Assembly: GCA_002792535.1 (NCBI GenBank)
Contig: PFOM01000004.1
Span: forward strand, 1-64,000
Reading direction: 5' to 3'
Origin: Candidatus Peregrinibacteria bacterium CG_4_10_14_0_2_um_filter_38_24
GTDB lineage: Bacteria; Patescibacteriota; Gracilibacteria; UBA1369; LOWO2-01-FULL-3
DNA: 64,000 bases
The position numbers and the translations under genes are program-made. The notes under the pieces are model-generated. The model was not told the DNA's origin, ran no database searches, and saw only the letters and a program-made list of their open reading frames with translations. Below, piece by piece: positions 2,104 to 51,258 of this stretch (the first letter of the stretch is position 1; each line of letters begins with the position of its first letter).

Positions 2104-2904
2104 ATGAAAAAAATAAATGAAGTATTAGATCTTTCAGCTAAAACTGCTGTTGTGACTGGTGGATCAAGAGGCATTGGTTTCGGGATTGCTTCTAGGCTTG
2201 CTGAGGCTGGGGCAAACGTTGTGATTGCGTCGATAAATGAAGAGGAAGTCATAAAAGCTGTGAAGACTATTACTGATAATGGATGGAGTGCAAAAGGATT
2301 GGTCGCAGATGTTTCAAAGGAAGAAGATGTTTTGAATATGCGAAAATTTGCTGTTGAAAATTTTGGTGGTGTTGATATTTTGGTTAACAATGCGGGAATA
2401 TTTCCTTCTATTCCGATTGCTAATATGACGATTGATGATTTTAAAAAAGTTATTTCTGTGAACTTGGAAGGTGTTTTTCTTTGTACAAAATATTTCAGTG
2501 AAGAAATGATCAAGAAGGGGAATGGAGGAAAAATTATTAATGTGACTTCTATTGATGCGCTTCATCCATCGTCTATCGGATTAGCTCATTATGATGCGTC
2601 AAAACATGGTGTTTGGGGGTTCACAAAAAATAGTGCACTTGAATTAGCGCCTCATAAAATTTGGGTTAATGCCGTCGCTCCCGGTGGAATCGCGACTCCT
2701 GGAGTTGCAGAGATGCAAGGAGGTGGTGCTGATACAACCGTCGATATGTCGAAATTTTTGGAAGTTTTCTTGAATAAAATTCCGATGCATCGGATGGGGG
2801 AACCGGATGATATTGCGAAAGTTGCTCTTTTCCTTGCGTCAGATATGTCGTCTTATATGACCGGTTCACAAATCGTTGTTGATGGAGGATTTTTGTTGAG
2901 TTGA
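2104..2904 (+). CDS. SDR-family oxidoreductase
   Basis: TGGSRGIGFGIA cofactor motif, NNAG, YDASKHG catalytic motif. Confidence 0.93.
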   Translation: MKKINEVLDLSAKTAVVTGGSRGIGFGIASRLAEAGANVVIASINEEEVIKAVKTITDNGWSAKGLVADVSKEEDVLNMRKFAVENFGGVDILVNNAGIFPSIPIANMTIDDFKKVISVNLEGVFLCTKYFSEEMIKKGNGGKIINVTSIDALHPSSIGLAHYDASKHGVWGFTKNSALELAPHKIWVNAVAPGGIATPGVAEMQGGGADTTVDMSKFLEVFLNKIPMHRMGEPDDIAKVALFLASDMSSYMTGSQIVVDGGFLLS

Positions 2905-27157: not shown

Positions 27158-27877
27158 ATGCAACATTTTTTTATAAATCAGGAACTTAAGGAGGGGAAGA
27201 TCATGATTACAGATCCGGATCTTCTTCATCAGATGAAAACTGTGATGAGATTTGAGGCGGGGGATAAGTGTGTTTTTTTGGACGGGAAAGGTGCGAAGGC
27301 GAATGGAGTTTTCGATGTTGTGGCGAAAAAGGAGGCGGTTATTGTTTTGACAGAAGTGACTCACTCTGCTGTAGATGGCCGAAAAGTGAATCTATACATC
27401 GCTTTGTCGAAAAAACCTGCAACGCTAGAATTGATAGTGCAAAAGGTTACTGAGATTGGAGTGACGGATATTTTTCCTATTGTTACAAATAGATGTCAGG
27501 TGAAGGAAATGAGAAATGTTCCAAGATTTCTTTCTATCATGAGCGAGGCGGCCGAGCAAAGTGAGAGGTGCGTTTTGCCTGTATTGCATGAGGTTATTTC
27601 GTGGAAAGATTTTTTGAAGGATTTTCCGAAAGGTGAAGTTTTGGTTGGGGATGCGAGGCAACATGACGTGAAGTTAGGGGAATATTTAAGGGAGAGGGCC
27701 GACTTCGTCGGCGTGGTAGGCATGGTCGGTGTTGTGATTGGACCGGAAGGAGGGCTTACAGATGAGGAAATCTCTGAGGCAAAATCCAAAGGTGCAAAAA
27801 TCTTTTTGTTAGGCGAGAATGTATTAAGAATGGAAACTGCGGCAATTTCTGCTATTTCGATGGTGATGTTCGAGTAA
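27158..27877 (+). CDS. rsmE: 16S rRNA (uracil-1498-N3)-methyltransferase
   Basis: VIGPEGGLTDEEI, LGENVLRMETAAISAISM. Confidence 0.92.
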   Translation: MQHFFINQELKEGKIMITDPDLLHQMKTVMRFEAGDKCVFLDGKGAKANGVFDVVAKKEAVIVLTEVTHSAVDGRKVNLYIALSKKPATLELIVQKVTEIGVTDIFPIVTNRCQVKEMRNVPRFLSIMSEAAEQSERCVLPVLHEVISWKDFLKDFPKGEVLVGDARQHDVKLGEYLRERADFVGVVGMVGVVIGPEGGLTDEEISEAKSKGAKIFLLGENVLRMETAAISAISMVMFE

Positions 27878-28026
27878 GGAATTGTGGAATTAATATGTCC
27901 ATTCGCAATAGGTTAAAGCAATTTACCAAATCTAACATGTACGATTTAGCAAATTTGAGTCGGTCATGACCGACTCAAAAGCTTTAACAAGCTATTGCTC
28001 ACGAACATATCAATTCTACAATTCCT
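27877..28026 (+). repeat. Three-way-junction element A
   Basis: 35-nt outer arms (27877-27911/27992-28026), inner stem 27912-27919/27981-27988, hairpin 1 27922-27953 with loop TAACATGTAC, 26-bp perfect palindrome 27954-27979. Confidence 0.9.
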
Positions 28027-28046
28027 GATCAGTCAAAAAGCACGAT

Positions 28047-44414: not shown

Positions 44415-44826
44415 TCGGTTTTTTCTACAGTACGTGTCCTATGTTTTCTTTTGTTTATGCGGTGATGCGGGATTTGGAGTTTTTTTAGGTTGCGATGGTT
44501 GTCAAATATGTGATGTAGGATTATTGCGGTAGAGGAGATGTGTTGTCTAACTGTGTGGTTTTCCCTAAATATTGTATGTCTGGTGTAGGAAGTGCCTACT
44601 TGTAGTGTGTGGCTTATCGGTGAGGAAATCCCTTGTGAAATGGAAGGAAAATAAATACTATTTGGACTGCAAGGATTTTTAGTTGATTTAAGGGCAACGA
44701 GGCGAGCGCACGGCGCGAGCGCGAGCAAGCGAAGCGTGTGGCTATGCCACCGCTGAGCGAAGTGAGCTTAGTGGGCTAGGTGGGCATTTAAATTTTTGCG
44801 TTTACTATTCTTTAAATTTTCATATC

Positions 44827-50453: not shown

Positions 50454-51044
50454 ATGAATCTCAAAAATTATGTTATTTCTGAGGCGAAAAATGCTATTGC
50501 GATTTTGAAGTTTGATAAGGTTATGATGGCTCATGTTGCAGGGAAATCCGATGCGACCAGAAACGGTATTATTATTCTTGTTGTTCCGGCTGTTTTTAAT
50601 ATTATTTTTGGATCGCTTAGTTTTCCTTCTGGATTTTCATCGATTTTTTCAAGGTTTCTTGTTTGGCCGCTTTTGATTCCGGTGTTTGCTTTTGTTGGAA
50701 TGATTTTTGGGGTTAGCTATGTGGCTAGAAAATATTTTCATGGAGTAGGAAATGATATTGGATTTTTCAGAGTTTTATCTTATGCAGGGGTTATTTCTTG
50801 GCTCTCTATTCCCGTTGCGGTTCTTTCAATGATTGGAGTTTTTGACATTTTTAATCTGCTTAGCATTATTAATTTGGCGGTGGTGATTATGGTTTTTGCG
50901 GTTTGTTATCATTTACTTTTGGATTACCACAAAGTTCATAAAGATGATGCTGTAAAGATAATTGCGATCGGTGTTGTCGGATATTTTGTGTTTCAGTGGA
51001 TTTTGGGGAAAATTTTGGTGGGTAGCGTGTATAGATATTTTTAA
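50454..51044 (+). CDS. Yip1-like multi-TM protein
   Basis: 196 aa, five hydrophobic segments. Confidence 0.6.
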   Translation: MNLKNYVISEAKNAIAILKFDKVMMAHVAGKSDATRNGIIILVVPAVFNIIFGSLSFPSGFSSIFSRFLVWPLLIPVFAFVGMIFGVSYVARKYFHGVGNDIGFFRVLSYAGVISWLSIPVAVLSMIGVFDIFNLLSIINLAVVIMVFAVCYHLLLDYHKVHKDDAVKIIAIGVVGYFVFQWILGKILVGSVYRYF

Positions 51045-51210
51045 AGATAGAAAAGGCAAAATTAGAGTTATATCTCTTCGCAATTTGTTTGTGCAGTTTG
51101 GCATATCTAACATGTACGATATGCCAAAAATTCAGGCATCATGATGCCTGAATTGGCACAAAAATAAATTGTTCATAGACATAACTCTAATTTTGCCTTT
51201 TCTACCTTTA
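51042..51210 (+). repeat. Three-way-junction element C
   Basis: Outer arms 51042-51094/51156-51210 including 23 perfect bp; hairpin 1 51097-51128 with perfect 11-bp stem and loop TAACATGTAC; 26-bp perfect palindrome 51129-51154 centred on CATG. Confidence 0.92.
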
Positions 51211-51258
51211 AAAAAAGGCTGTTTTGTGGTATAATGTTTAGATATAAATTAGCTATAA

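Follow-up and report, generated by a model that had tools for sequence, protein, structure and literature searches.

The gap between rsmE and hppA in Candidatus Peregrinibacteria bacterium CG_4_10_14_0_2_um_filter_38_24 raises the question of what a near-perfect three-way-junction hairpin of 150 bp is doing directly behind an ordinary gene. The hairpin, Element A, occupies 27877-28026 of the window, by which we mean the whole stretch of DNA analyzed here (64,000 nucleotides, positions 1 to 64,000 of contig PFOM01000004.1). It follows an rsmE-like gene for a 16S rRNA methyltransferase (27158-27877, plus strand; PF04452, 7e-38) and precedes hppA, which encodes a membrane pyrophosphatase (28182-30284, plus strand, with its start near 28182; PF03030, 7e-264). 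An earlier note on this DNA had described the structure of A, and all of the features that it listed were found where it placed them. The 5' outer arm begins at 27877, the final A of the rsmE stop codon TAA (27875-27877). The 8-bp stem GTTAAAGC/GCTTTAAC (P2, of which 7 bp are conserved across the family) pairs 27912-27919 with 27981-27988. Inside it lie a hairpin (P3, 27922-27953) with a loop at 27933-27942 that reads TAACATGTAC on the plus strand and GTACATGTTA on the minus strand, and a perfect 26-bp palindrome (P4, 27954-27979) with the loop CATG at 27965-27968. That description was incomplete, as it lacked a conserved 3-nt bulge (27989-27991, CTT on the minus strand), a tandem G.A loop, and a half copy that abuts A at 28027-28071. 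Outside P2, the stem P1b pairs GCAATAG (27905-27911) with CTATTGC (27992-27998), followed by the left and right outer arms (27877-27904 and 27999-28026), which carry the two halves of the tandem G.A loop as TC at 27903-27904 and 27999-28000. The sequence of the left arm is unique to A within its own genome. Counted as 38-nt segments (27877-27914 and 27989-28026), the outer arms are 82% complementary.

The fold of A is exceptionally strong. RNA folding gave z-scores of -7.9 for the plus strand and -11.2 for the minus strand, with none of 200 shuffled sequences folding as well, and single-stranded DNA folding gave -9.5 and -11.4. The minus strand is the better folder (-74.6 versus -56.0 kcal/mol for the plus strand as RNA); the A.C mismatches of the plus strand become G.T pairs on it, and the TC/TC internal loop becomes the tandem G.A. 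We therefore treat the minus strand as the folding strand of A. The earlier note also held that A exceeds an ordinary terminator, and this is supported by the further copies and the covariation described below. An intrinsic terminator has a short G+C-rich stem and then a T-run, while the outer arm of A is 38 nt long and A+T-rich, and no T-run directly follows A on either strand.

A DNA search of the genome itself (1.10 Mb in 43 contigs) recovered further copies, and the exact string TCTAACRTGTACGA alone occurs seven times. A covariance model built from four copies (R1) gave 12 strong matches in this genome (E 2e-28 to 2e-13), with the core of A (27905-27998, minus strand) scoring 85.3 bits (E 3.8e-23), and a broader model (R2) gave 16. 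Covariance-model matches numbered 8-14 in each of three congeners, and dozens were found across the relatives. The family, which we refer to as the Y-element, is thus represented in this genome by about sixteen copies of a small mobile element that is without earlier description. Two more full copies lie in the window, both with the minus strand as the folding strand: Element B (37334-37472, 58.6 bits), between groES and groEL, which has a GA/GA loop inside P4, and Element C (51038-51212 including its long arms, core 51080-51172, 97.9 bits). The remnant next to A (28027-28071, minus strand) begins within a P4, at the CATG loop, and from there comprises P4', P2', the bulge, and the P1 arm of a different type I element. 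Where the neighboring genes could be identified they are ordinary housekeeping genes, and no gene family is common to them.

Read on its folding strand from the outside inward, the Y-element opens with a long arm, P1, followed in many copies by a tandem G.A internal loop. After P1b, the 5' side carries a bulge of 3 nt, and the 7-bp P2 then leads to a three-way junction with two hairpins: P4, of about 10-11 bp and closed by a CATG loop, and P3, of 11-12 bp with GTACATGTTA as its loop. The descriptor proposed in the earlier note (11-bp stem/TAAC[AG]TGTAC/11-bp stem followed by 11-C[AG]TG-11 inside long arms) comes near to this consensus, but it was written for the strand that is not the folding one. 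The P3 loop is identical in 48 of 63 copies, and the bulge reads CTT, ATT, or GTT in 30 of the 44 that were aligned; the tandem G.A module sits in P1, P4, or P3 depending on the subtype. A further subtype has a four-way junction, with an extra short hairpin after P3 (L069 at about 2700-2800, minus strand; L139, L143, L152, L154, and L162). The covariation that the note had named as a test is massive: in the alignment of 44 sequences, 91.6% of cells are standard pairs and all 35 of 35 pairs show two-sided changes, with 597 cells changed on both sides (107-130 in slid controls) and a covariation score of 0.937 (about 0.1 in slid controls). Fitting the alignment to the model tilts it toward the structure, yet values in the slid controls are lower by an order of magnitude. 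The family conserves its fold and its unpaired letters, namely the GTACATGTTA loop, the CATG loop, the 3-nt bulge, and the tandem G.A, while the stem sequences are free to vary. We also considered intramolecular kissing of the two CATG loops, and rejected it, as CACG variants would fail to pair there on the folding strand and show only partial co-variation.

RNAs typically show such covariation together with fixed loops, a bulge, and tandem G.A, and a structured non-coding RNA or 3'-UTR RNA would be one way to account for it: the minus-strand transcript would fold into the Y and act in trans, or would stabilize or terminate transcripts, and the copies would have spread by ordinary recombination. 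The location of copies at gene 3' ends agrees with such a role, as does the excess of G.T over A.C mismatches, about 2:1 (44:26 in the core, 105:52 in the arms, 149 versus 78 together). However, G.U makes up only about 2% of core pairs, which is low for an RNA, and there is no preferred orientation relative to the flanking transcription, since at tandem sites 10 copies are sense and 12 antisense to the genes, with A and B both antisense to their neighbors. Elements are also swapped at one site between sister genomes, as described below, and Rfam 15 gave no match in the window at the gathering score, while 20 element loci gave only tRNAs. At an E-value threshold, Rfam returned only weak microRNA-hairpin matches below the cut-off, and tRNAs in adjoining DNA. 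Overall, we consider the RNA explanation unlikely.

Two-by-two GA/GA loops are present on the folding strand in 33 of 63 copies and on the complement in none (0/63), and because they sit solely on the folding strand, one strand appears to be the recognized form. The G.T excess agrees with single-strand folding. With GC skew as a proxy for the direction of replication, C-rich and folding strand coincide at 40 of 48 independent sites (p 3e-6); among copies with a skew of at least 0.1 they do so in 33 of 36. The bias suggests either a DNA process linked to replication or a better survival of one of the two orientations, and in the second case it need have no bearing on mechanism. By the usual GC-skew convention, which may not fit these organisms, the C-rich strand is not the lagging-strand template, a point against the reading that we favor below. 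On balance, the folded form is probably DNA rather than RNA. As a separate observation, the 998-kb single contig of HGW-Peregrinibacteria-1 showed negative GC skew in 20 of 20 sampled 4-kb stretches (L189-L208), and its cumulative skew appears not to turn. Peregrinibacteria have been stated to have ordinary two-extreme skew curves (PMC7143001), and it is possible that replication in this genome is one-directional.

Comparison of related genomes revealed filled and empty sites. Downstream of groEL, C24_metabat.bin.136 carries an element where the window is empty (near 39144-39150), with flanks that match on both sides; the insertion replaced five native bases, and this one clean filled/empty site has no target-site duplication. 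Between groES and groEL, Ike-200m-53 is empty, and our genome and C24_metabat.bin.136 hold related elements in opposite orientation. The rsmE-hppA gap holds A in our genome and a different subtype on the other strand in Ike-200m-53, while in MaH-04nov19-39, and apparently also in C24_metabat.bin.136 (across a contig break), it contains a small gene and no element. A further site (G000_L066) has wholly different elements in our genome and in C24_metabat.bin.136 (G002_L088) between flanks that are about 95% identical, and MaH-04nov19-39 has at this site the new element together with the right half of an element of the C24_metabat.bin.136 type (L096:5904). The new element recurs at a non-orthologous site of Ike-200m-53 with 91% identity over 139 nt, and the matching site in our own genome contains only the right-half remnant of another element. 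The 139-nt span of identity between these non-orthologous copies puts the mobile unit at about 140 nt, and the arms outside this unit are specific to their sites. We rejected the idea that the arms were derived from native target sequence at groES-groEL and downstream of groEL, as the alleles without an element lack the arms too. One arm at the 51-kb site does resemble the element-free allele of Ike-200m-53. The empty groEL and groESL alleles show at most a weak hairpin. Taken together, the Y-element is almost certainly a real, conserved, and mobile family.

Two side observations concern these same sites. At several sites where one species has a Y-element, close relatives have a small extra gene in its place, namely at rsmE-hppA, at the 51-kb site, and at C4:32970 of Ike-200m-53 (L113, L115, L210, L247, and L249); turnover of these intergenic sites is fast. 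The MaH-04nov19-39 assembly breaks exactly between groES and groEL (end of C81 and start of C2; L212 and L213), where relatives carry a Y-element, and hairpins of this kind may break metagenome assemblies.

Where the elements go is clearest in HGW-Peregrinibacteria-1. Its seven Y-copies share longer flanks, and these flanks belong to a second hairpin family, Z, a branched hairpin of 132 bp with TIR-like arms that ends in CAATCTTATTCT/AGAATAAGATTG and is unrelated to the Y-element (L226, L220, L242, L231, L233, and L221, at about 1501-1632). Where both Z ends are intact, the Y-element replaces the apical loop of Z, which reads GAACAAAGTGAGGCGAGCAAA in the empty form. Most Z copies that are free of Y are in turn found between the two parts of a split Y-element, and there are also triple Y/Z nests, so that each family enters the other near the hairpin tip. 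In the genus of our own genome, elements likewise adjoin half copies or lie within them (A with 28027-28071, and L096:5904 in MaH-04nov19-39). Insertion into hairpin loops is clear only for the Y/Z nests of this one genome, and its extension to the whole family is our generalization, for and against which we see the balance as even. If it is general, it would account for the length, near-perfection, and site-specificity of the palindromic outer arms, for half copies lying directly beside full ones, and for the gathering of elements at the ends of genes, as terminator hairpins are to be expected there.

Copies lie at gene 3' ends whatever the direction of transcription, and 19 independent sites are convergent and 5 divergent, compared to 24:42 for gaps free of elements. 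This convergent-gene bias could be read in favor of a passive palindrome, that is, a hairpin that serves as a strong bidirectional terminator or as an mRNA end, in which template switching during replication would keep the arms perfect and no dedicated mobility is involved. Between close copies (twelve pairs), two-sided changes outnumber one-sided ones (27 versus 18), a pattern suggestive of templated correction of one arm by the other, though selection on the fold could give the same result; the half copies, moreover, suggest palindrome deletion. However, a passive palindrome leaves much unexplained: the conserved loops, bulge, and G.A loops, the copies inside the groESL operon, the clean insertions, the occurrence of one unit at unrelated sites, and the Y/Z nesting. 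The lack of a T-run after A also speaks against it, and we regard this explanation as quite improbable.

Another alternative is a miniature inverted-repeat element (MITE) of an ordinary DNA transposon with a transposase gene that is missing or diverged. The Y-element is small, non-coding, intergenic, and patchy, with several copies per genome, and the arms of Z are TIR-like, all of which would suit a MITE. The details of the copies do not: there is no conserved terminal repeat sequence, the arms differ between most copies, five nucleotides were replaced with no duplication at the clean groEL site, and the stems vary freely while the loops are fixed. A conventional MITE is in our estimation very unlikely.

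The reading that we favor, to which we would assign an even chance, is that A is a copy of a small, non-coding, non-autonomous mobile element that is recognized as a folded single DNA strand and placed into existing hairpins. One defined strand of the roughly 140-nt unit would fold into the Y, and a putative recombinase or nuclease would recognize this folded single strand, most likely as single-stranded DNA at the replication fork. We infer recognition of the fold because the fold and the unpaired letters are kept and the stem sequences are not. The element would then be placed into the apical part of an existing hairpin, for example one that resembles a terminator and stands at the end of a gene, or one that belongs to another copy, and the old arms would stay around the new element, leaving long, near-perfect outer arms that are mostly unlike between sites. 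It is conceivable, though we hold it somewhat doubtful, that this represents a class of bacterial mobile elements recognized only by the shape of the folded strand, which spread by replacing the tips of other hairpins, nested like Russian dolls, their sequences drifting while the Y fold and unpaired letters stay, and mobilized by an enzyme system that is not yet described.

Some of these properties are shared with known systems. The Y-element appears to work most like the attC sites of integrons, in which a folded single strand is recognized by its structure, unpaired letters mark the strand, and the folding of attC and the excision of cassettes are influenced by how the site is oriented with respect to replication (PMC5371416). 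As to a preference for one strand, the observations in the Y-element are the GA/GA loops, seen on one strand only, and the bias of the folding strand toward the C-rich strand. In contrast to attC, the Y-element is a Y with two fixed hairpin loops, found as single copies at gene ends and with no cassette arrays. The resemblance of the GTTAAAGC stem of A to an R box is not a family trait, as the R-box pair RYYYAAC/GTTRRRY is present in only 1 of 63 copies, and identity with attC was rejected. In its habit, the family resembles the mitochondrial hairpin elements of fungi (DHE) and sponges (RHE), which are small, non-coding, and patchy between close relatives, with mobility that is inferred (PMC2800124); an RNA route was suggested for the Allomyces elements from their lack of flanking duplications, and in sponge RHEs the stems are conserved and the loops vary (PMC2800124). 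The Y-element, for its part, is bacterial, has a three-way junction, fixed loops, and stems that vary with full compensation, and takes part in the reciprocal nesting of two families. We claim neither homology to the mitochondrial elements nor membership in either group.

REP, BIME, and REPIN sequences are also intergenic palindromes, and IS1397, IS621, and ISKpn1 insert specifically into REPs (PMC1525189). Here, however, the inserted sequence is itself a hairpin, and the Y-element keeps its structure rather than its sequence and occurs in about 1-16 copies per genome rather than hundreds. A REP/REPIN system with a RAYT was rejected, as the Y1 transposase (PF01797) does not co-occur with the copies, being absent from Ike-200m-53, C24_metabat.bin.136, MaH-04nov19-39, and HGW-Peregrinibacteria-1, which carry 7-14 copies each. 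Our own genome has one Y1 transposase gene, interrupted by one TGA (L169, G000:C11:53326-53685, minus strand), that was not found in the congeners. Rickettsia palindromic elements (RPEs) and other bacterial MITEs are palindromic mobile repeats of 100-150 bp in small genomes; RPEs keep sequence families and enter genes in frame, unlike Y-elements, which are intergenic and keep only their fold.

To place the family taxonomically, we scanned 85,488 species genomes with a pattern spanning both loops, which matched 49 stretches. Nearly all of the matches that fold are named Candidatus Peregrinibacteria, Peribacteria, or Gracilibacteria, and two carry general names (Patescibacteria group bacterium and bacterium casp150-mb.315). 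Matches in Paenibacillus, Macrococcoides, Methylophilales, three archaea, and Fluviicola do not fold and were dismissed as chance. A phage origin was likewise rejected, as none of three pattern matches on viral contigs folds. Across 389 genomes of the phylum, R2 gave matches solely in our genome, Ike-200m-53, C24_metabat.bin.136, and HGW-Peregrinibacteria-1, all of one family, and none elsewhere. The element is restricted to Candidatus Peregrinibacteria, with scattered copies beyond the congeners, and it is patchy within its family and order, with copies in 19 of 32 genomes examined and several near-complete relatives that have none. The full-text literature, in which subscription journals have limited coverage, yielded no description of such repeats in Peregrinibacteria.

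The Y-element adds a previously undescribed repeat family to a candidate-phyla bacterium with a genome of about 1.1 Mb. All of its stems show almost complete compensation, than which structural evidence hardly comes stronger, yet it apparently acts as DNA, which cautions that covariation alone is no proof of RNA. The natural filled/empty pairs and nested copies provide material for working out the mechanism of structure-guided insertion, and the family accounts for a part of the very long palindromes that are unique in these genomes, and for a part of their variable intergenic sites. The window also contains, at 44701-44771, a G+C-rich repeat of about 70 bp (beginning GAGGCGAGCGCACGGCGCGAGCGCGAGCAAG); the three congeners have over 15 copies of it that are 80-97% identical, some of them in tandem.
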